From positions 1 to 36,947 of the forward strand of contig JAFWRC010000050.1 in NCBI GenBank assembly GCA_017508825.1: DNA of 36,947 nt, in the 5' to 3' direction. The notes under the pieces are model-generated. The model was not told the origin of the DNA. It did not search any database and saw nothing but the letters and a program-made list of their open reading frames with translations. Positions 16,535-30,956 of this stretch are shown here, in pieces. The position numbers and the translations under genes were made by a program. The number at the start of each line of letters is the position of its first letter. Position 1 is the stretch's first letter. Source of the stretch: Lachnospiraceae bacterium (lineage in GTDB: Bacteria; Bacillota; Clostridia; Lachnospirales; Lachnospiraceae).

Positions 16535-16543
16535 TGTGTGCCT

Positions 16544-18745
16544 ATGAATAGGAACTTCAGGCTTCTGAGACGAAAAAACGGTATCCTGCATCCGGCGGTC
16601 ATTGCTTTGATGGCCGCCTCGGTGCTGCTTAATATCCTTTTGTCCATGGTAGTCCGTTCTACGGATCTGCCTTTGTATATCGATACCATCGGAACCATCG
16701 TCGCCACAGCGCTTGGAGGGATCGTTCCGGGCATTTTGACGGCATTTGTAACAAATGCCGTCAATTTTTTCCTGGATGGAGAATCCATCTTTTATGCGCC
16801 GCTCAATATGCTGATCGCTATGCTCTCCGCGGCCTGGTTCGGTGATTATTCGGTTTATAAAAAAACGCTGAAGCACTGTGACGGTGAAACGCCGAATAAA
16901 AAAAAGGGCATATTGGATCTGCTCTTGTATATTCTGCTGCTGGCGCTGATCGGCGGTGGGATCGGAGGCGCGATCACTTGGTATCTGTATGCGGAAGCCG
17001 GCGATGCGCATGTGATCACAGGATTTGCAGGGTGGCTGAAAGAACGGTTCGGGATAGGGGGCTTCGGTTGTCATATGACAGCAGCTTACCTTACGGATGT
17101 TTTGGATAAGGCAGTTTCCGTAGCGATCGCGCTGATGATCATCCGGGGCGTTCCGAAGAAAGTCAGGGAATATGTGCGTCTTTCTTCCTGGAGACAGAAA
17201 CCCCTGACGATGGAGGAAAGGGAGAGATCCACACGAAAGCTGCGGGGGCGGATGTCCATCGGGATGAGAATCCATCTGATCATCGTTTTTTCCACGCTGC
17301 TCATGACGCTGGTGGCACTGATCTTCAGTATCGTCAGCTTCCGTGCGAATATGGTCGAATCGCTTTCGACATCGGCTGCGCAGATCGCTTATCTGGCAGC
17401 GCGATCGATCGATCCGGGGAGGGTGGATGCTTATCTGGAATACGGGGATGCGCTTTCGGATTATGAAACCACCCGTGAGCGGCTGAAGATATTAAAGAGC
17501 AGTTCGGATGAGATCGCTTTTTTGTATGTCTATAAGATCGAAACCGACGGATGCCACGTGGTCTTTGATCTGGATACGGTACTCAGTGACGGACGTGTGG
17601 TCCCCGGAGATCCTGCCGGTACGGTAGTTCCCTTTGAGGAAGGAACGGAAAAATACAAGGATGCGCTGCTTGCGGGACAGGAACTGCCGACGGAGCTGCT
17701 CAAGGATGTGTATGGCAGTCATATCGCATCGTATTGTCCTGTGTATGATGACAACGGGCAGTGTGTATGCTACGCTGTTTCAAATGTGGAATCCGGTCTG
17801 GTAACGCAGCGGCTGGAACACTTTATCGGCAGGGTGATTCTCTTGTTTATCGGATTTCTGACACTGGTCCTGACGATGAGTATCATGATGACAAAGTATC
17901 ATATCGTATATCCCATCACTGGTATGACGCTGCGCGCGGATGAACTGGTGGAGCAGATCGGCGATGCAAAAGAAGAAAGTCTGAAGAAGCTGGAAGAAAT
18001 GGACATCCGTACCGGAGATGAGGTGGAACTGCTGTACCGTGCGCTGTGTAAGCTGACGGGGGATACGGTGTATCAGCTGAATGATAACCGGAACAAGTCG
18101 GAAGCCATCAATAAGATGCAGAGCGCACTGCTGATCACCATGGCGGACATGGTAGAAAGCCGTGACTCGGATACCGGCGCCCATGTATTGAAAACAGCGG
18201 CATATGTGCGGATCATCCTGCAGGGGTTAAAGCGAAACGGATATTATATTGAGAAACTCAGTGATAAGTATATGCGGGATGTGGAGATGAGCGCGCCGCT
18301 TCACGATGTGGGCAAGATCAATATACCGGATGCCATCCTGAATAAGCCGGGAAAGCTTACGGATGAAGAATACGAGATCATGAAGACACACACCACCGCA
18401 GGGAAAAAGATCCTGGAAAATGCCATCAGCTCGATGGAGGGGGATAATTACCTGAAAGAAGCCAGGAATATGGCGGCTTATCATCATGAGCGATGGGACG
18501 GAAAGGGATATCCGGAGGGACTTCATGGGGAAGTGATCCCGCTTTCGGCCCGCGTGATGGCGATCGCGGATGTTTTTGATGCGCTTTCTTCGGAACGTGT
18601 ATATAAACCGGCGTTTCCGTTTGAAGTGGCGATCAAGATCATCCAGGATGGTGCCGGAACACAGTTTGATCCGCTGTGCGTGGAGGTATTTCTCGAGTCT
18701 GTTGCGGAAGTAAAGAAGATCTTGAAAAAGTATCAGGAAACATGA
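16544..18745 (+). CDS. HD-GYP cyclic-di-GMP phosphodiesterase with S-component-like membrane domain
   Basis: I start at ATG 16544, nine bases after the previous stop; a GTG two codons earlier is the alternative. No clear ribosome site, so coupling to the chemoreceptor is likely. Residues 1-200 form a membrane domain whose [27 protein letters not shown] and [16 protein letters not shown] segments look like an ECF-transporter S component. A second membrane helix pair (about 243-268 and 430-450) brackets an extracellular Cache-like domain, followed by a HAMP-like linker. The HD-GYP domain (about 525-720) is complete: [52 protein letters not shown]. It should degrade cyclic-di-GMP. The stop overlaps the next start by 4 bp. 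Confidence 0.9.
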
Positions 18746-22396: not shown

Positions 22397-24805
22397 ATGT
22401 TTGAGTGGATGGAAGTGCATCAATTGAATATCATGCTCGGGCTTTCCAGTGTATGCTTTGCTGTCGGGCTGTTTGCTCTGTTTACAAAGTATCTGCCGAA
22501 AAGACGGAAGATCGCGCTTGCCAATCTGGAATTATCAGCGGGCATTTTGCTGTTTTCGGATCGTCTGGCGTATATGTATCACGGAGTTCGCGGATTTGAA
22601 GGGTACTGGATGGTACGGATCACAAATTTCCTGGTTTTCTTTATGACGATCTTTGTGGTCTGTGCCTTTAACCAGTATGTAAAAGATCTTTGCATCAATG
22701 AAATGGGATTGGAAAAATGCCCGATCCGTCTGAAACTGATCGATGGTCTGTGTTTGATCGGAGGGGGCCTGGTGATCGTTTCGCAGTATACGGGATTGTA
22801 CTATACCTTTGACGAGAATAACGCATATCAAAGAGGCCCCGGTTTTATCATCTGCTATGCGATTCCTTTTCTGGCACTGATCATTCAGATGTCGGTACTT
22901 TTTTGGTACAGAAGGCGGATGAGCCGCTACATTGGGATCCCGGTGATCCTGTTCACGCTGATCCCGATGCTGGCATCCTTATTCCAGGCAAAGTATTATG
23001 GTGTGTCACTTACCAATATGGCGATCGTAGGAATGGGTATCGTGCTGTATCTGTTTGCGATCATGGAGATGAATGAGAAACTGGAGAAGGCGCAGAAAAG
23101 AGAACTGGATGCAGCGAATAACAAGAGCCTGTCGATCCGCAGATCCTTTGAGCAGGTTGTGAAGACCATTATAGATGCCTTGGACGAAAGAGACCGGTAT
23201 ACCAGGGGGCACTCCTTACGGGTGGCGGAATATTCCAGAGCGATCGCGCAGAATATGGGGCTGGATGAGAGGGAGTGTTTCCGTGTCTATCATACAGCCG
23301 CATTGCATGCGATCGGAAGGATCCGGATCCCGGATGCGCTGGTCAGCAAACGGGGCCATCTGACGGAAGCAGAAGAAAAAGAAATGAAAAAGCAGCCGGT
23401 CTACGGTCGTGAGATCTTGTCGAGAGTTGAGGAACTGCCGTATCTTTCGGTTGCTGCGGCAAGTCATCACGAGAGATATGACGGAAAGGGGTATCCCGAG
23501 GGACTCAAAGGAGAAGCAATCCCGTTGTATGCCAGGATTGTTGCGGTTGCAAACGCTTATGATGAGATGACTTCTTTTAAGGCGGGGCGTAAACCTATGG
23601 CCCAGGGAAAAGTCCGCGAAAAACTGAAGGCAGCTGCCGGCGGGGAGTTCGATCCGAAGATTGTGGATATCATGGTGGCAATGATCGATAAAGATACCGA
23701 ATACATGATGCGTGAGCCGGAAGATGAAACGATAGAAGAGGAAGAGCGTACGGATCTTACGGCAGTGAAGCAGATGCATTTTGAGAATTATAAAGAAACG
23801 GTATCCGACGGGATCCGTATCTCCAAAAAGCCGTTGAAGATCTGCTTTGAAGCGCATCCGGATGCCGGTTTTGAAAGGAAGATGGCAATGCCTTCGATCC
23901 TTTTGTTTGATTCCTTTGATAGCTGTGTGCACCGGAATGAAAGAACGATCCGTAATCTCCACTATCTGGAATACGGCGGGATCTGGATGGACGGACATAC
24001 GATCTGCACTTCTGCAAGGGATATCCGGAATGAGATCCGTACGAAGAAAGAGCAGGGAGATGAAAACGGCTGGATCCGCTATGAGATCGAGGCGGTGAGC
24101 AATAGGGATCATGTCCGGATCCGGATCGACAGTCCCGAGCAGTTCTGTGAAGTGACAGTGGCGCTTCCGGATGCGGCCAGATATGTGTATTTCGGACTGA
24201 CCGGGGAGCATTGCATGGTACGCAATATTTCCGTAGAGGAAGCAGAGAAAAGCATTGATGACAATGAGATCGTGCGCATCGCGCCGGAGGTGGATTATTT
24301 TACCCGCAGTGATGGTGATCTGCCGAATGTGGAGGTGGACGGGTATCGTGAGGCATCTACACAGGGAATCCCGGTGGAGGAAGGACTGCGCCTGTTGTTC
24401 AGTACGTGCAGTCTGCCGGAAGCTAGTCTTGTGACGCACTGCGCATTCATCGTATTGTTCTTCTCGGAAGACGGAACGGTAGACGGAAAGAATTATAAGG
24501 AGTATGCGTGCATCCGTATGGATGGCGATGATGCAACAAATGAAGGATGTGCCAGGAATGCATTAGTTGTGGAAATGACGGAAGAGTTCGGCGGATGGGA
24601 TCGCTGGAAAGAAAGGAACCGCAGAGGATTGGATTATGAGGTACAGTTCCGGCGGAAGAAGAACCGGATCACTTTTGAGACGGAGAATGCCGGGATCTTG
24701 ATCCGCTGTACAACGATGCTTCCGGAAGGGAGCGGTGCAGTGTATGCAGCGCTCACGGGAAATCTGTGTACACTGATGAATATACGGACGCGGTTTGAGG
24801 ATTAG
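22397..24805 (+). CDS. Degenerate HD-GYP membrane protein with duplicated C-terminal domain
   Basis: 802 residues, starting 16 bp after the kinase gene with GGTGGGG as ribosome site. Residues 10-225 hold about seven membrane helices. Residues 250-430 are HD-GYP by pattern ([24 protein letters not shown]), but key residues are changed. The HD dyad is H304-A305, the following lysine is R308 (HAIGR for HDIGK), the metal histidine in KxHP is Q333, and the late aspartate in the VAD motif is N386. Phosphodiesterase activity is therefore doubtful; binding or scaffolding is more likely. Residues 450-802 contain two related modules of about 170 residues, each ending in Y-x2-LTG-x2-C-x3-NI. I do not recognise that family. 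It is the last gene of the signalling operon. Confidence 0.85.
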   Translation: MFEWMEVHQLNIMLGLSSVCFAVGLFALFTKYLPKRRKIALANLELSAGILLFSDRLAYMYHGVRGFEGYWMVRITNFLVFFMTIFVVCAFNQYVKDLCINEMGLEKCPIRLKLIDGLCLIGGGLVIVSQYTGLYYTFDENNAYQRGPGFIICYAIPFLALIIQMSVLFWYRRRMSRYIGIPVILFTLIPMLASLFQAKYYGVSLTNMAIVGMGIVLYLFAIMEMNEKLEKAQKRELDAANNKSLSIRRSFEQVVKTIIDALDERDRYTRGHSLRVAEYSRAIAQNMGLDERECFRVYHTAALHAIGRIRIPDALVSKRGHLTEAEEKEMKKQPVYGREILSRVEELPYLSVAAASHHERYDGKGYPEGLKGEAIPLYARIVAVANAYDEMTSFKAGRKPMAQGKVREKLKAAAGGEFDPKIVDIMVAMIDKDTEYMMREPEDETIEEEERTDLTAVKQMHFENYKETVSDGIRISKKPLKICFEAHPDAGFERKMAMPSILLFDSFDSCVHRNERTIRNLHYLEYGGIWMDGHTICTSARDIRNEIRTKKEQGDENGWIRYEIEAVSNRDHVRIRIDSPEQFCEVTVALPDAARYVYFGLTGEHCMVRNISVEEAEKSIDDNEIVRIAPEVDYFTRSDGDLPNVEVDGYREASTQGIPVEEGLRLLFSTCSLPEASLVTHCAFIVLFFSEDGTVDGKNYKEYACIRMDGDDATNEGCARNALVVEMTEEFGGWDRWKERNRRGLDYEVQFRRKKNRITFETENAGILIRCTTMLPEGSGAVYAALTGNLCTLMNIRTRFED

Positions 24806-24845: not shown

Positions 24846-24874
24846 TTGACAAGTTAGCAGGGACTAATTATACT
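24846..24874 (+). promoter_or_regulatory. First promoter of the HMA/DUF6110/P1B-ATPase operon
   Basis: TTGACA (24846-24851), 17 bp, TATACT (24869-24874): near-consensus sigma-A. One TTAG-N6-CTAA operator fills the spacer and another lies just downstream of the expected start near 24881. This arrangement is typical of tight repression. Confidence 0.85.
24854..24867. promoter_or_regulatory. Operator 1, TTAG-N6-CTAA, in the promoter spacer
   Basis: TTAG-CAGGGA-CTAA lies exactly between the -35 and -10 boxes of the first promoter. The same 4-6-4 pattern recurs 30 bp downstream and in front of feoA. The arms match the outer half-sites of DtxR/IdeR-type boxes (TTAGG...CTAA). Confidence 0.75.
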
Positions 24875-24883
24875 GTGTTTTGG

Positions 24884-24897
24884 TTAGTGAAGGCTAA
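24884..24897. promoter_or_regulatory. Operator 2, TTAG-N6-CTAA, at the transcription start
   Basis: TTAG-TGAAGG-CTAA begins about 10 bp after the -10 box and 30 bp (about three helical turns) from operator 1, so two regulator dimers could sit on the same face of the DNA. Confidence 0.75.
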
Positions 24898-24957
24898 TGC
24901 ATAAACGGAAGAAAGCAGAAATTGCCCGGTAATTTCAAAAGGGTAAATTTTTTTACA

Positions 24958-24987
24958 TTGACGGTTAGAATTAACTACTAATATATA
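24958..24987 (+). promoter_or_regulatory. Second, tandem promoter of the metal operon
   Basis: TTGACG (24958-24963), 18 bp, TATATA (24982-24987), about 50 bp before the HMA gene. The spacer holds an imperfect TTAG-N6-CTAC site. A weak hairpin with seven T residues (about 24921-24957) lies between the two promoters. Confidence 0.6.
24965..24978. promoter_or_regulatory. Operator 3 (imperfect), in the second promoter spacer
   Basis: TTAG-AATTAA-CTAC, one mismatch from TTAG-N6-CTAA, again located between -35 and -10. The position repeats that of operator 1, which supports its being functional. Confidence 0.55.
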
Positions 24988-25036
24988 TATAGTACTGACA
25001 ATGGTGAGAAGGAACGAATAGAAGGAAAGAAACACC

Positions 25037-25414
25037 ATGAGGGCGGCATTAACAAATACAATCATCATCATCATCCTGCTGTTTATGATCGTGACTGCGA
25101 TAAAGAGCACGATCGCGCATTTTAAAGGCGAAGGAGCTTGCTGTGGCGGAGGAGGAACGCAAAAACTTATCCGGCCGCGACGATTAAAAAAAGTACTTTC
25201 CGTGACGACCGTTCATATCAAAGGGATGATGTGCGATCATTGTGCGGCAAGGATCCAGAATGCGCTGAATTCTCTGGAAGGTATAAATGCAAAGGTAAAT
25301 CTGAACAAAGAAACTGCGGTCATTAAGTCAGACCGGGAGATGAATGAAGCAAGAATAAAAGAAGTGATCGCAGATCTTGGCTATGTGGTCGCATCGATGG
25401 AAGAACAAAAGTAA
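25037..25414 (+). CDS. Membrane-anchored heavy-metal-associated (HMA) domain protein
   Basis: 125 residues. An N-terminal membrane helix (about 7-27) is followed by a short cysteine-glycine patch (GACCGGGG, C35 and C36) like that of small FeoB-associated Cys-rich membrane proteins. A cytosolic HMA domain (about 55-122) carries the metal motif GMMCDHC (C66, C69). The end, IKEVIADLGYVV, is typical of HMA folds. It would bind a soft or transition metal ion at the membrane and hand it to or from the ATPase encoded two genes later. First gene of the operon, behind two operator-bearing promoters. The joining of the Cys-rich anchor to an HMA domain in one chain is notable. Metal identity is unknown; iron is favoured by context. 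AGGAAAG precedes the start. Confidence 0.88.
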   Translation: MRAALTNTIIIIILLFMIVTAIKSTIAHFKGEGACCGGGGTQKLIRPRRLKKVLSVTTVHIKGMMCDHCAARIQNALNSLEGINAKVNLNKETAVIKSDREMNEARIKEVIADLGYVVASMEEQK

Positions 25415-25481
25415 CTTAAAAGAAACGATAAGTTCTGAACAGTTACAAAAAAGATAAGGTGACGAAAAAGGAGGAAGTAAA

Positions 25482-25724
25482 ATGAAAGGATGGAAACTGT
25501 TTGCTTTAGGCGCATTGTTTGGACTGGAGGGGATCAAACTGTTATCCTCCAAAGATGCAAAGAAGATTTATACGCATTGCACCGCCGGTGTGCTGCGTGT
25601 AAAGGATTCGATCATGGATCAGGTGACTACGCTGCAGGAAAACTGTACGGATATTTATGAAGATGCCAAGGCGATCAATGAGGAGCGTGCGGCGAAAGAG
25701 GATGAGAATAAGATCGGAGAGTAG
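25482..25724 (+). CDS. Small DUF6110-like protein
   Basis: 80 residues with an AAAGGAGGAAG ribosome site. The first 22 residues are hydrophobic with GALFGLEGIKLL, a short glycine-zipper-like membrane anchor. Then comes SSKDAKKIYTHCTAGVLRVKDSIMD and an amphipathic helix with QENCTDIYEDAKAINEER. I recognise this as resembling DUF6110 proteins of Clostridia, which I associate with neighbouring heavy-metal P-type ATPases; the function is not established. It lies between the HMA gene (67 bp) and the ATPase gene (6 bp) in one operon. If the locus is ferrosome-like, a small membrane-associated accessory protein would fit here, but that is inference. Confidence 0.75.
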   Translation: MKGWKLFALGALFGLEGIKLLSSKDAKKIYTHCTAGVLRVKDSIMDQVTTLQENCTDIYEDAKAINEERAAKEDENKIGE

Positions 25725-25730
25725 ATCGTT

Positions 25731-27806
25731 ATGAAAATCCTGATCAAACATGAGAACAAAAAGAGACTGCGCGTGCATCTGCCTTTCAAACGCCTGACAT
25801 ATCGGGAAGCAGATCTGCTGGAGCATTATCTTACGGGGTTTTCCGAGATCACGGAAGTAAAGGTATATGAGCGCACAGCGGATGCGGTACTTTTTTATGA
25901 ATGCGACAGAGCGCAGGTATTGGAGATCCTGACGGAGTTTTCCTTTGAGGATACGCAGGCCGTAGACCGATATCCTGAAAACAGCGGCAGAGAACTGTCG
26001 GCGGAATACCGGGATAAGATCATCAGCAGTATCCTGCTGCATTACGGAAAGAAACTGATCCTGCCGCTTTCTATTCGGAGAATCTGGGAGCGGATCAAAA
26101 CCGTAAAATATATCGTCCGTGGACTAAAGACATTGGCGAAGGGACATATCCAGGTAGAACTGCTGGATGCGATCGCCATTACTGCGGCAATCCTGATCGG
26201 AGATTACAAAACGGCATCGAGTGTTATGTTTCTTTTGAACATCGGAGATACGCTGGAAGAGTGGACGCACAAACGATCCGTGGACGATCTGGCAAGACGG
26301 ATGTCGTTAAATGTCGATAAAGTATGGCTGGTGACGGATGCCGGAGAAGTACAGATCGATTCTGCCAAGGTGGCATGCGGCGACCGGGTAGTCGTTCGAA
26401 TGGGAAATATGATCCCCTTTGACGGAGAAGTATGTGAAGGAGAAGCCTGTGTAAATCAGGCATCGATGACGGGAGAATCGAATGCCGTACGAAAAACGGT
26501 CGGAATGTCCGTCTTTGCCGGTACGGTTCTTGAAGAAGGCGAACTGACCATTCGCGTCACGCAGACCGAGGGCAGCGGACGATTCGATAAGATCGTAAAG
26601 ATGATCGAAGAGTCCGAAAAGATGAAATCTTCTTTGGAGAGCAAAGCCGAAAGACTGGCCGATAAACTGGTGCCGTATACGTTGGCAGCTTCTGCGCTGA
26701 CATGGCTGATCAGCAGAAATATGACCAAGGCGGTTTCGGTTCTGATGGTGGATTATTCATGTGCACTGAAGATGGCGATGCCGATCTCGGTGCTGTCTGC
26801 GATCAAAGAAGCAACCGATTACGGGATCACGGTCAAAGGCGGCAAATTCTTAGAAGCCGTAGCAGATGCGGATACTATCGTTTTTGATAAGACCGGAACA
26901 CTGACCAAAGCGAGTCCTACGGTACACTCCGTGATCTCTTTCTGTGAGGAATCGGAAGACGAATTGTTAAGACAGGCAGCCTGTCTGGAGGAGCATTTCC
27001 CGCATTCGGTAGCAAGGGCAGTGGTAGAAGAAGCGGAGCGGAAAGGACTGCTTCATGATGAAATGCATACGAAAGCGGAGTATATTGTGGCGCATGGGAT
27101 CGCTTCTCATATTGACGGGAAGAAAGCGGTGATCGGCAGTTACCATTTTGTTTTTGAAGATGAAGCGGTAAAGATTCCGAAAGAGTATCAGCAGCGGTTT
27201 GATGACCTGCCGGCAGAGTATTCACATTTGTATTATGCAAAGGATGGACTGCTCTGTGCCTGTATTCTGATCGAAGATCCGATGCGGAAAGAATCTGCGA
27301 ATGTGGTTGCACAGTTAAAAGAACTTGGTTTCCGGCATGTCGTGATGATGACCGGAGACAGTGAGCGTACGGCAGCAGCGATCGCAGCATCGGCAGGCAT
27401 CGAAGAATATTACTCCGAGGTACTGCCGGAAGACAAAGCGGGATATATTGAGCGGGCAAAGAAGGAAGGACGTCACGTGATCATGGTGGGTGACGGGATC
27501 AATGACTCACCGGCGCTTTCTGCGGCAGATGCCGGTATTGCGATCAGTGAAGGTGCGGAGATCGCAAGGCAGATCGCGGATATCACCATCAGTTCGGAAG
27601 AACTGGAGAGCATTGTTGTATTGAGGAAACTCAGTACGCTTCTGATGAAGAGGATACGACTGAATTACAGGACGATCGTCGGATTTAACACGGCATTGAT
27701 CGCGTTGGGGATTGCGGGAATCCTGCCACCGGCAACATCCGCGATGCTCCATAACGGATCCACCGTTGCATTGGGCTTAAAGAGTATGACACCGTTGATT
27801 GATTGA
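25731..27806 (+). CDS. P1B-type metal ATPase with SCA motif (FezB-like candidate)
   Basis: 691 residues. The N-terminal 90 or so resemble a degenerate HMA domain without CxxC. Membrane helices follow from about 100 and 140. Actuator motif TGES at 247-250. The metal-site helix carries DYSCALKMAMP (S343-C344-A345) instead of CPC. DKTGT has phospho-acceptor D386, the nucleotide domain has HFPHS (423-427), the hinge is GDGINDSP (587-594), and the last helices have LHNGS. All catalytic motifs are intact, so ATP-driven metal transport is expected. An SCA-type motif is, to my knowledge, typical of the P1B-6 group, which includes FezB of ferrosome loci. The metal is not proven; co-regulation with feoAB points to iron. 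A strong terminator follows. Confidence 0.88.
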   Translation: MKILIKHENKKRLRVHLPFKRLTYREADLLEHYLTGFSEITEVKVYERTADAVLFYECDRAQVLEILTEFSFEDTQAVDRYPENSGRELSAEYRDKIISSILLHYGKKLILPLSIRRIWERIKTVKYIVRGLKTLAKGHIQVELLDAIAITAAILIGDYKTASSVMFLLNIGDTLEEWTHKRSVDDLARRMSLNVDKVWLVTDAGEVQIDSAKVACGDRVVVRMGNMIPFDGEVCEGEACVNQASMTGESNAVRKTVGMSVFAGTVLEEGELTIRVTQTEGSGRFDKIVKMIEESEKMKSSLESKAERLADKLVPYTLAASALTWLISRNMTKAVSVLMVDYSCALKMAMPISVLSAIKEATDYGITVKGGKFLEAVADADTIVFDKTGTLTKASPTVHSVISFCEESEDELLRQAACLEEHFPHSVARAVVEEAERKGLLHDEMHTKAEYIVAHGIASHIDGKKAVIGSYHFVFEDEAVKIPKEYQQRFDDLPAEYSHLYYAKDGLLCACILIEDPMRKESANVVAQLKELGFRHVVMMTGDSERTAAAIAASAGIEEYYSEVLPEDKAGYIERAKKEGRHVIMVGDGINDSPALSAADAGIAISEGAEIARQIADITISSEELESIVVLRKLSTLLMKRIRLNYRTIVGFNTALIALGIAGILPPATSAMLHNGSTVALGLKSMTPLID

Positions 27807-27852: not shown

Positions 27853-27888
27853 AAAATAATGATCGCTGTAAAAAGCGATTATTATTTT
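27853..27888. terminator. Terminator between the ATPase operon and feoA
   Basis: A 15-bp stem (27853-27867 with 27874-27888, one G-T pair) closes a 6-nt loop. The core is ATCGCT/AGCGAT with A/T-rich ends, including a terminal TTTT. It separates the metal ATPase operon from the feo operon, which has its own operator just beyond. Confidence 0.85.
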
Positions 27889-27914
27889 GATAAGCGGTTA
27901 GTGATCACTAATTG
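27887..27914 (+). promoter_or_regulatory. feoA promoter with perfect TTAG-N6-CTAA palindrome
   Basis: The 14-bp site at 27898-27911, TTAGTGATCACTAA, is a perfect palindrome and fits the motif found at the ATPase operon promoters. A TTGATA (27887-27892) lies 5 bp upstream as probable -35. The -10 is less clear (TAATTG at 27909, 16 bp spacing). The operator thus overlaps the core promoter, 36 bp before feoA. Confidence 0.75.
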
Positions 27915-27946: not shown

Positions 27947-28174
27947 ATGAAACTAAGTGAAATGAAACCGGATCACGAAGCAGTGGTATCCGGGATCAAC
28001 GGGGATGCGAGGTTTTTGAGTCGTATCACATCCATCGGCATCACGCCGGGCTGTAAGATCCTGGTGATGCGAAACGACAGGAACCGGCCGATGCTGGTGT
28101 ATTCAAGAAACACCATGATCGCATTGAACCGGAAAGAATGTGTTGGAATTGAAGTAGAGGAGGCAACGGCATGA
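27947..28174 (+). CDS. feoA: FeoA, ferrous iron transport accessory protein
   Basis: 75 residues with the SH3-like FeoA fold: MKLSEMKPDHEAVVSGI, SRITSIGITPGCKILVMRN, NTMIALNRKECVGIEVE. It is a small cytosolic partner thought to regulate FeoB. Strong AGGAGGA ribosome site. Its stop overlaps the FeoB start (ATGA), so the two are translationally coupled. Controlled by the palindromic operator upstream. Confidence 0.95.
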   Translation: MKLSEMKPDHEAVVSGINGDARFLSRITSIGITPGCKILVMRNDRNRPMLVYSRNTMIALNRKECVGIEVEEATA

Positions 28175-30183
28175 GCGCAACAATAGCACTTTTGGGACAG
28201 CCGAACTCCGGTAAGTCCACGGTATTTAATGCATTGACGGGATTAAAGCAGCATGTAGGTAACTGGCCGGGCAAGACCGTTGAGAAGAAGGAAGGCAGTT
28301 TTGTACGTGACGGAAAAGAGTATGCGGTAGCGGATCTGCCGGGCTCATACAGTTTGACTGCAAATTCCGACGAGGAAGTGATCACATGCGAGTACATTGC
28401 ATCCGGGAAAGCGGATGTGGTATGTATCCTGGCGGACTCTTCCCAGCTGGAGAGAAGCCTGTATATGATGGCAGATTATGCCGGTATCAAGGTACCGAGT
28501 TTCCTGGTACTGAACATGGCCGACGTTGCGGCGGATCAGGGAAAGAAGATTGATACAAAGGTTCTGGAAGAAAAACTGGGGATTCCTGTGATCTCCTTAT
28601 CCGCAACGGATAATAAAAAATATGACGCATTCTTTGAGGCGATGAACCGTGCGATCAGTAATAAGAGCATGATCAATATCGCCGGCCTGGAGGCGGAACT
28701 GCAAAAGGTGGATGCCTATGCAAAGATCCGTGCCTTGCTTCCGGAGGAAGGCGTAAAGAGTTACTCACCGACGTGGCTGGGTGTAAAAGCAATCGAAAAT
28801 GACAAACTGGTAATGGAGCAGCTAAAATCCGTACTTTCTGTGGCAGAAGAAAAGCAGGTGGAAGAGATACGATGTACTTCCAAAGGCGCGCTGGATACCG
28901 GTAACAGTAAGTTTGCGTGGATCGACGAACTGCTGGACGGTGCATTGAGTGAACAGAAAGAAAAAATCGGTGTTTCCAAACTGGATAAGATCTATTTAAG
29001 CCCGTTCTGGGGCAAACCCGCGGTCGTACTGACGATACTGCTCGGCCTGATCGGTTCGTTCATACCGGCGCTTCCGCTTATGGGGGTAGGATCTGCAATA
29101 GATATGCTGAAGGCGCCGGTTGGTTCTGCATTGGCATCTGCGGGGGTATCCGACGTCCTGATCGCGCTCATCTGTAATGTCGTGATCCAGTCCTTCAGTT
29201 ATATTTTCAAGATGCTGGGATTTGTATTTGGCGTGTTGCTGGTATTTGGATTGCTGGAAGAAGTGGGCGTGATGGCCAGGATCTCTTATGTGTTTGATAA
29301 TACCATGGCAAAACTGGGACTGCAGGGAAAATCCGTGATGCCGTTTTTGATCAGTTTCGGCTGTACCATGGGTGGCGCGGCCGGTACCCGTGTGATCGAT
29401 AACTACGGACAGAAGGTATTGACGATCGCGCTGGCGTGGGCCGTACCCTGCGGCGCAGCCTGGGCGGTGATCCCGATGCTGTCATCTCTGTTCTTCGGTC
29501 CCGGGGCGGTAGCGGTCGTAGTGGCGATCCTTTTGACGATGATCGTACATATGTGGATCACGGCAAAAATCTTCGGCCGAAAACTGGTAAAGAAGGAAGA
29601 CCGTTACGGTATGATCATGGAACTGCCGCCGTATCATAAGCCGAAGTGGGGCGCACTGTTCCGCTATGTACTCGGCAGAACCAAAGATACCTTCTTCCGT
29701 GTATCCAAGGTAGTATTGCTGGTATGTGTACTGTTCTGGGCGCTGAGTTATTCCTTTACTCCGGGCGTAGATCCGATCCTTTGCAAGATCGGTAAAGTGA
29801 TCGAGCCGGTGACAAAAATCTTCGGATTGAACTGGCAGCTGTTTATGGCATTTGTGGCTTCTTCGGTTGGTAAAGAAGGAGCACTGGGTGTGATCAGTGC
29901 ATTGTTTACGGATGGTTCGGTATACGGCGCCTTCAACGATGCAATGAGCGGTGCGGCAACTGCCGAGAACCTGAACGATATTCTGCTGGCAAATGTAAGT
30001 AAGCCGCAGGCTCTGGCATTCATTTTCGCCATCACCTTTAATATGCCTTGTGTGGTAGCGCTGGCATCTACTTACCAGGAGATCGCTTCTGCAAAATGGA
30101 CGGCCAAGATCGCGCTGTACTACACGCTGGGTGCGCTGGTGCTCGCTATGATCGCATATCATATTGGCTTGCTGATCTGGTAA
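28171..30183 (+). CDS. feoB: FeoB, ferrous iron transporter
   Basis: 670 residues, the main Fe2+ importer. The N-terminal GTPase has G1 GQPNSGKST, G2 threonine in VGNWPGKTVE, G3 DLPGSYSL, and G4 NMAD. A helical GDI-like region is followed by about ten membrane helices (from about 280), with the conserved GCTMGGAAGTRVID gate segment and SVGKEGALGV. Length is slightly below the longest family members, but no motif is missing. Overlaps feoA by 4 bp. Followed by a dispersed repeat and then the FeoC-like gene. Confidence 0.97.
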   Translation: MSATIALLGQPNSGKSTVFNALTGLKQHVGNWPGKTVEKKEGSFVRDGKEYAVADLPGSYSLTANSDEEVITCEYIASGKADVVCILADSSQLERSLYMMADYAGIKVPSFLVLNMADVAADQGKKIDTKVLEEKLGIPVISLSATDNKKYDAFFEAMNRAISNKSMINIAGLEAELQKVDAYAKIRALLPEEGVKSYSPTWLGVKAIENDKLVMEQLKSVLSVAEEKQVEEIRCTSKGALDTGNSKFAWIDELLDGALSEQKEKIGVSKLDKIYLSPFWGKPAVVLTILLGLIGSFIPALPLMGVGSAIDMLKAPVGSALASAGVSDVLIALICNVVIQSFSYIFKMLGFVFGVLLVFGLLEEVGVMARISYVFDNTMAKLGLQGKSVMPFLISFGCTMGGAAGTRVIDNYGQKVLTIALAWAVPCGAAWAVIPMLSSLFFGPGAVAVVVAILLTMIVHMWITAKIFGRKLVKKEDRYGMIMELPPYHKPKWGALFRYVLGRTKDTFFRVSKVVLLVCVLFWALSYSFTPGVDPILCKIGKVIEPVTKIFGLNWQLFMAFVASSVGKEGALGVISALFTDGSVYGAFNDAMSGAATAENLNDILLANVSKPQALAFIFAITFNMPCVVALASTYQEIASAKWTAKIALYYTLGALVLAMIAYHIGLLIW

Positions 30184-30284: not shown

Positions 30285-30554
30285 ATGGACGATTTACTAC
30301 GACTATTAAAAGACGGCCACGCCCGTACCATCCCGATGCTTGCCAAAGAACTGCACACCAGTACCGCAGATGTGAGTCGCAAGATCGAGTATCTGGTGAA
30401 TATGGGACTGATCCGTAAAGTGGATTTCGGACCGAAAAAATGCGGCAGCTGTGGTGGCGGCTGTTCATCGGAGAACGGCCAAAAGACTTGTAAGAGCTGC
30501 ATGCCGGAAGGCGGTTTTCAGAATATGGGACAGATGTGGGAAGTAGTCGGATAA
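30285..30554 (+). CDS. FeoC-like winged-helix protein with cysteine cluster
   Basis: 89 residues with TAGGAGA as ribosome site. Residues 1-45 form a small winged helix (LLRLLKDGHARTIPMLAKEL, STADVSRKIEYLVNMGLI). A cysteine-rich loop follows, CGSCGGGC...CKSC (C53, C56, C60, C69, C72), likely an iron-sulfur or metal site. This is the FeoC plan: a small cytosolic partner that senses iron or oxygen and influences FeoB. Five cysteines and a glycine-rich loop differ from the enterobacterial FeoC. The DtxR-type gene follows after 27 bp. Confidence 0.82.
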   Translation: MDDLLRLLKDGHARTIPMLAKELHTSTADVSRKIEYLVNMGLIRKVDFGPKKCGSCGGGCSSENGQKTCKSCMPEGGFQNMGQMWEVVG

Positions 30555-30581: not shown

Positions 30582-30956
30582 GTGGAGAAAAGTACATCAT
30601 CGGAAGATTATATGAAAAGTATTTTGATCCTGCACAAAAGAAAGGGATCGGTGAGATCTGTAGATATCGCAGAGGAAATGGGGGTGAGCAAACCCAGTGT
30701 CTGTAATGCGATGAAGAAACTCCGGAAACAGAAGATGGTCTATTTCGGGGGCGAGGGAAATATTCTTTTCACGGAAGAAGGGCAGAAGATTGCGGAAAAG
30801 ATCTACAAAAAACATTCCCTGATCTTCCGCTTTTTAAGGCTGATCGGCGTGAACCGGGAGAATGCGGATCGTGAAGCCTGTCTGATGGAGCATGCGATCA
30901 GCGATGAAACCTATGATTGTCTGAAGGCATTTGTGCATAAACAGGAAAACGTATAG
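30582..30956 (+). CDS. DtxR/MntR-family metal-dependent regulator
   Basis: 124 residues, GTG start with GAGAAGGAA upstream. The winged helix (VRSVDIAEEMGVSKPSVCNAMKKL, then VYFGGEGNILFTEEGQKIA) is followed by the dimerisation and metal domain. Predicted ligands mix the two subfamilies: D9 (SSEDY, as in MntR), H78 (YKKHSL), and C100-x2-E103-H104 (EACLMEH, as in DtxR/IdeR). The SH3-like third domain of IdeR is absent. Encoded directly after the feo genes, it is the obvious candidate to bind the TTAG-N6-CTAA sites at feoA and the ATPase operon. Iron as co-repressor is inferred from the regulon; manganese is possible. Confidence 0.9.
   Translation: MEKSTSSEDYMKSILILHKRKGSVRSVDIAEEMGVSKPSVCNAMKKLRKQKMVYFGGEGNILFTEEGQKIAEKIYKKHSLIFRFLRLIGVNRENADREACLMEHAISDETYDCLKAFVHKQENV

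Follow-up and report, generated by a model that had tools for sequence, protein, structure and literature searches.

Ferrosomes are iron storage organelles that depend on fez genes, and a 2025 review describes Clostridioides difficile as the first Gram-positive bacterium with ferrosomes (PMC12574912). According to the same review, C. difficile ferrosomes require the membrane protein FezA and the transporter FezB, both Fur-repressed, and are used under iron limitation; loss of fezB impairs colonisation of mice, and the question is raised whether other pathogens or commensals have ferrosomes (PMC12574912). The C. difficile fezAB genes are CD630_05910-05920 (PMC11651100), and the fez clusters of R. 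palustris, with six fez genes, and of D. magneticus, with FezC, also include a FezB iron transporter (PMC12016538, PMC10979944); this background comes from these four papers and from PMC11533511. Here we describe a stretch of 36,947 nucleotides from a Lachnospiraceae bacterium (contig JAFWRC010000050.1, assembly GCA_017508825.1; hereafter the window) in which genes for an HMA protein, a DUF6110 protein and a P1B ATPase stand directly before feoAB. Judged from its sequence, this locus probably encodes a ferrosome (fez) system like that of C. difficile, placed under DtxR-type control.

The genes lie on the + strand in the order TM-CCG-HMA (transmembrane-CCG-HMA) gene, DUF6110 gene, P1B ATPase gene, feoA, feoB, FeoC-like open reading frame (ORF) and DtxR-family gene. 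Because the intergenic gaps are only 67 and 6 bases, the first three genes likely form an operon; the 140 bases between the ATPase gene and feoA contain a stem-loop and a separate box. A preliminary description made from the same DNA had given these genes in this order, and profile searches agree with its positions, the FeoC-like match lying below cut-off.

The ATPase carries the motifs TGE (residue 247), DKTGT (386), GDG (587) and HN, and a search for CPC in it found none, with SCA at that place. The preliminary description had read SCA correctly at residues 343-345 and had set it against CPC. It is no peculiarity, because SCA is the usual motif of these ATPases: it is present in 41 of the 43 complete or nearly complete ATPases from the window's bacterial family (the other two have CCA) and in the C. 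difficile ATPase, so that SCA as a novel motif is rejected. HN is found in 42 of the 43, the remaining one being cut off. We also observed DUF6110-ATPase pairs with SCV replacing SCA on Deinococcus plasmids (L118, L126).

Two C. difficile genomes, located by a housekeeping-gene pattern, were compared with the window. The best-match C. difficile ATPase is 54% identical to the window ATPase over residues 3-690 (53% in the second genome) and is preceded by a DUF6110 gene. About 10 P-type ATPases matched in the first genome, and of the five that were retrieved it alone has SCA and HN. We strongly infer from these sequences that it is FezB. In a quick tree of 49 rows (23 of the 43 family ATPases, hand-picked for spread), 33 rows with the window and C. 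difficile ATPases stood apart from 16 CPC-type or other P1B rows with a support of 99; among the plasmid matches listed, ATPases of Azospirillum, Arcobacter, Vibrio, Cereibacter and Deinococcus also fell in the group of 33. A careful, midpoint-rooted tree of 27 rows (12 of the 43, again hand-picked for spread, with several long-branch rows dropped) yielded an SCA/HN clade of 19 rows that holds the window ATPase and the C. difficile FezB candidate with support 100/100, and C. difficile was nested among the DUF6110-linked ATPases of the family (15 rows, 100/99). Some end branches are long, and the trees are without proven manganese, P1B-5 or PfeT/FrvA P1B-4 pumps and have one CzcE-neighbouring row (L128). 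The kinship with FezB and P1B-6 ATPases proposed in the preliminary description is supported by these sequences. A firm place among zinc, copper or manganese exporters, which that description had named as refuting its reading, did not emerge: both the SCA that replaces CPC in transmembrane segment 4 (TM4) and the tree position keep the window ATPase out of the CPC-type copper and zinc/cadmium exporters, in rows that hold no proven manganese pump.

The small protein encoded before the ATPase, for which a comparison with FezA had been proposed, has its counterpart in C. difficile: the gene before the ATPase there also encodes a DUF6110 protein (84.7 bits). Glycines G10 and G14 of its GxxxG helix are invariant in all seven aligned DUF6110 proteins. 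Among 120 genomes sampled from the bacterial family of the window, 46 have DUF6110 (its own genome included; 45 above cut-off). It was found in none of 14 control genomes, and a search with the window ATPase identified 44 of the 120 genomes at E 1e-150, 43 of them shared with the DUF6110 set. The set of related loci comprises 46 loci from 45 other genomes, one genome having two. An ATPase match of 45-74% identity lies downstream of DUF6110 on the same strand in all 46 loci, one match being a remnant, and 45 of the 46 have a tblastn match to the window DUF6110. The remnant, in G091 (L083, 1201-1938), lacks the middle residues 37-576, through either an assembly fault or a real deletion; it accounts for one of the three DUF6110-only genomes, and in the other two (G023, G029) the contig end cuts the ATPase. 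Only G021 has the ATPase without DUF6110, and there a gene for a similar small protein lies immediately upstream of the ATPase. With C. difficile fezAB, whose identity in the compared genomes is itself deduced from sequence, the window shares the order of the pair, DUF6110 first, and an SCA/HN P1B ATPase of the same clade. The window differs in its shorter DUF6110 protein (80 versus 131 residues), in the HMA gene before and feoAB-feoC-dtxR after the pair, and in its DtxR-like boxes where a Fur-like box precedes the C. difficile genes. The R. palustris and D. magneticus clusters were compared by description only. Azospirillum and Arcobacter plasmid clusters, among the plasmid matches listed, have SCA ATPases with HMA2/YtxH partners and may be of the R. 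palustris/D. magneticus kind.

FeoB and DtxR recur around the related loci. Counts were made with the window itself excluded; 31 of the 46 loci span the full 16 kilobases (kb). Ten genomes that carry DUF6110 and have long contigs supplied the controls, 40 further stretches of 16 kb at hand-chosen positions, and the list of neighbouring ORFs was made mechanically. Of the 31 full-length loci, 14 have FeoB no more than 8 kb away and 9 have DtxR, versus 0 of 40 control stretches for each; with cut loci included, the counts are 18 and 10 of 46. The DtxR query and the first FeoB query were the window's own, and the second FeoB query and those for ATP-binding cassette (ABC) transporters were taken from clusters within the fez loci, so that part of their enrichment reflects this choice. 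Queries for a Fur-type regulator, DUF3793 and flavodoxin were chosen from the same clusters, which inflates the contrast for these three (each 12/31 versus 0/40). ABC transporters are mildly enriched (15/31 versus 8/40). DUF3793 (L080:5799-6383), which may be an iron-limitation protein, and flavodoxin (L047:8895-9335) recur beside 16 of the 46 fez loci each.

The regulatory motif that the preliminary description saw before both fez and feo exists. The pattern TTAGYNNNNRCTAA has three exact sites in the window (24854, 24884 and 27898), where shuffles expect 0.09 and none of 100 shuffles reaches 3; with one mismatch allowed the count is still 3 and is not beyond chance (shuffle mean 1.88, with 26 of 100 reaching 3). 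Since the pattern was written after sight of the window sites, the rest of the genome serves as the independent test. Genome-wide, GTTAGYNNNNRCTAA has 10 distinct sites (14 rows) versus 2 for the reversed pattern: two before fez, one before the window feoA, two (of the 7 outside the window) before a second feoA-feoB set, and three before ABC-type operons, namely HlyD-ABC-FtsX, an ABC pair, and another such pair that diverges from TetR and a binding-protein gene. The first fez box falls in the spacer of a candidate promoter; comparable promoter matches are as frequent in shuffles (8 found versus 8.4 expected), and this one was singled out because the box overlaps it and not for its match score. 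The same geometry recurs at two further sites in the genome, one upstream of the HlyD operon and the other upstream of the second feoA, and a box inside the promoter spacer is in a repressor's position. The promoter boxes agree with the co-regulation of fez and feo that had been predicted.

The regulator that binds these boxes may be of the DtxR family. No match to the Fur family (PF01475) was found in the window's own genome (89.7% complete), whereas 13 of 14 control genomes match, and none was found in the complete same-genus genome G004; PerR and Zur relatives therefore seem to be missing too. The window's genome has three DtxR-family matches, one of which is the window regulator. This protein of 124 residues has Cys100-x-x-Glu103-His104, with Cys where MntR has Glu. 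Cys-x-x-Glu-His is the primary metal site of DtxR and IdeR, both of which have Cys at that position. Of the residues that would mark an MntR, Asp9 matches, but Cys100 and Lys12 stand where the B. subtilis and E. coli MntR proteins have Glu. There is no room for a third, SH3-like domain because the protein has only 124 residues.

Other loci of the family have different elements. A Fur-like box (at most 2 mismatches) occurs in 10 of 44 family loci and in both C. difficile loci (reversed pattern, 1/46), and judging from these sites the iron regulator of the core pair seems to vary among relatives. That the boxes replace Fur wherever Fur was lost is not supported, as 42 of the 45 other DUF6110 genomes have a Fur-family protein, many box-bearing ones included. 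Additionally, by clustering, 13 of 44 loci have short regulators matching only the DNA-binding half of Fur directly before the DUF6110-ATPase pair. One of these (L045:6845-7276) has its Fur match at positions 2-64 of 121, and others are in L046, L050, L051, L052, L062 and L075; their sensor part is unlike Fur.

Features of the window's fez and feo genes, with positions in the window
Feature	Position	Strand	Evidence
Sigma-70-type promoter TTGACA-17-TATACT of the likely fez operon	24846..24874	+	11/12 positions
DtxR-like box TTAGCAGGGACTAA, within the -35/-10 spacer of the fez promoter	24854..24867		
Second DtxR-like box TTAGTGAAGGCTAA, before fez	24884..24897		
TM-CCG-HMA protein, membrane-anchored metallochaperone candidate	25037..25414	+	PF00403 54 bits; weak FeoB_associated N-terminus
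DUF6110 protein, FezA-type, GxxxG helix	25482..25724	+	PF19605 110 bits, E 6.4e-32
P1B-6-type ATPase, FezB-type	25731..27806	+	TIGR01525 508 bits; SCA 343-345, HN 674-675
Stem-loop, terminator-like, fez/feo intergenic	27862..27879		scored on minus strand only
DtxR-like box TTAGTGATCACTAA, perfect palindrome, before feoA	27898..27911		
feoA	27947..28174	+	PF04023 51.5 bits
feoB, Fe(II) importer	28171..30183	+	TIGR00437 363.5 bits
FeoC-like winged helix, Cys-rich tail	30285..30554	+	weak: PF09012 17.6 bits, cut-off 21
DtxR-family regulator, GTG start, C100-E103-H104	30582..30956	+	PF02742 64 bits, PF01325 39 bits

The first gene of the likely operon encodes a protein with one hydrophobic stretch (residues 9-27), CCGGGG at 35-40 and CDHC at 66-69, the CxxC of an HMA domain. 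CCG is invariant in six aligned TM-CCG-HMA proteins, and in four of the six the N-terminus weakly matches FeoB-associated Cys-rich proteins, all below cut-off. By tblastn the protein is found in 8 of the 46 related loci, and the 4 of 31 full-length loci versus 1 of 40 controls is not a significant difference, so that a core fez part is rejected. An HMA partner had been proposed for this locus; its gene does stand in the likely operon, and the core or iron-specific role falls away, since the protein is accessory and occurs away from fez loci. In L063 a homologue lies not before fez but immediately upstream of feoA, with the DUF6110 gene about 6 kb further on. The most fitting view of the protein is that of a general chaperone, anchored in the membrane, that was recruited at the window locus.

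We infer from the genes, their homology and pairing, the phylogeny, the boxes and the overlap of box and promoter how the locus might work, that is, its metal, its compartment, the direction of its regulation, which regulator binds and the role of the chaperone. FezA (DUF6110) would oligomerise in the membrane through its GxxxG helix and gather FezB into membrane that becomes an internal compartment, into which FezB would pump cytosolic Fe(II) for storage. As iron falls, a DtxR-family repressor would leave the boxes before fez and the two feoAB sets, so that importer and store are made together; as iron returns, FeoB would import it and FezB would sequester the surplus. Metal is probably delivered to FezB by the TM-CCG-HMA protein. 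A bolder variant has the TM-CCG-HMA protein carry Fe(II) from FeoB straight to FezB, bypassing the free pool, with one DtxR-type switch having replaced Fur; it draws on the resemblance of the N-terminus to FeoB-associated proteins and on the L063 homologue that precedes feoA, and we hold it to be rather unlikely.

Several observations weigh against a ferrosome under DtxR-type control. The ferrosome is predicted here from genes, and C. difficile is the only proven ferrosome maker compared. FezC (DUF4405-like, PF14358), a cytochrome of the D. magneticus type that is not listed among the proteins C. difficile requires, has 0 matches in the window's own, 89.7% complete genome, and FeoA, searched with the window query, is present in only 1 of the 46 related loci and is not enriched (1/31 versus 0/40 controls). 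Two of the 10 GTTAGYNNNNRCTAA sites fit no transport gene, one preceding a methyltransferase-like gene that ends an ECF operon, the other following an ABC pair close to where a contig ends, and they do not speak for an iron regulon. DtxR-box control is not general, because no more than 12 of the 44 family fez loci (window included) have the exact box, and it is found in 0 of 2 C. difficile loci (reversed pattern, 0/46). The best PDB matches of the window regulator are MntR proteins, to which its overall similarity is highest; in NCBIfam, too, MntR models score best, though below cut-off. The usual ligand of an HMA domain is Cu(I) or Zn(II). Full-length TM-CCG-HMA homologues are also encoded on contigs other than those of the fez loci and in genomes that lack DUF6110, and five of the homologues listed lie 2.6-2.8 kb from the HMA match of an ORF of 843-906 residues (G026, G029, G008, G076, G114). 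By sequence these ORFs are probably CopA, which suggests a membrane-anchored CopZ-like family. The CxxC of the HMA chaperone and the regulator's closeness to MntR in the PDB could mean that the ATPase handles copper, zinc or manganese, with the feo neighbourhood incidental or manganese-linked. We consider this very unlikely given that the ATPase is phylogenetically apart from CPC-type pumps, that FeoB is enriched across the related loci and that the boxes also precede the second feoAB of the genome.

The preliminary description had left storage and export of iron side by side, and storage now appears the likelier of the two. For export, the ATPase would be an Fe(II) exporter in a DUF6110-clustered membrane efflux platform with no internal store, like the mycobacterial PacL/CtpC effluxosome, which also pairs a small GxxG membrane partner with a P1B ATPase having HN in TM6 (PMC9374683, PMC13043812). 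These papers call DUF6110 PacL-like and a relative of PacL (DUF1490), and their authors suggest that P1B6 ATPases may be assembled into platforms (PMC9374683, PMC13043812); under the midpoint root of the careful tree the SCA clade is followed by a DUF1490-linked Rhodococcus ATPase as the next branch. That ATPase is outside the clade, however; DUF1490 is not among the hits of the window protein at E 0.1, where PF19605 is found instead, and the window ATPase has SCA and not the CPC of a PacL/DUF1490 platform. Export pumps are needed when iron is high, yet the fez promoter holds a box common to iron importers. PfeT and FrvA, like the proposed pump, are P-type ATPases that move Fe(II), but one review puts iron-exporting P-type ATPases in P1B4 (PMC7762939), a different subfamily with the opposite expected regulation. 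In C. difficile, moreover, a pair made up of these same two components is reportedly required for ferrosomes (PMC12574912). We regard export as improbable and storage in a ferrosome as the better account of the window locus.

Upstream of these genes, the window is rich in signalling genes between 2748 and 24805, with two methyl-accepting chemotaxis proteins, two GGDEF proteins, a hybrid histidine kinase with a propeller and two HD-domain proteins (16538-18745 and 22397-24805).

Earlier papers already cover ferrosome genes, the pairing of DUF6110 with P1B6 ATPases and the C. difficile system. A literature search that left most subscription papers outside its reach found no report of ferrosomes in Lachnospiraceae or under DtxR. 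As far as that search reaches, it is new that DtxR-type boxes accompany a fez locus, that such a locus adjoins feoAB and that these genes are spread through the family, and Grant 2022 and Pi 2023 may list such clusters. The window locus is thus a possible regulatory variant of the known ferrosome system, differing in its regulator and in its optional HMA chaperone, and the DtxR link yields a simple testable prediction. If these loci work, iron storage organelles would be a common tool in the family, in which 46 of 120 genomes have DUF6110 and 44 have the ATPase.

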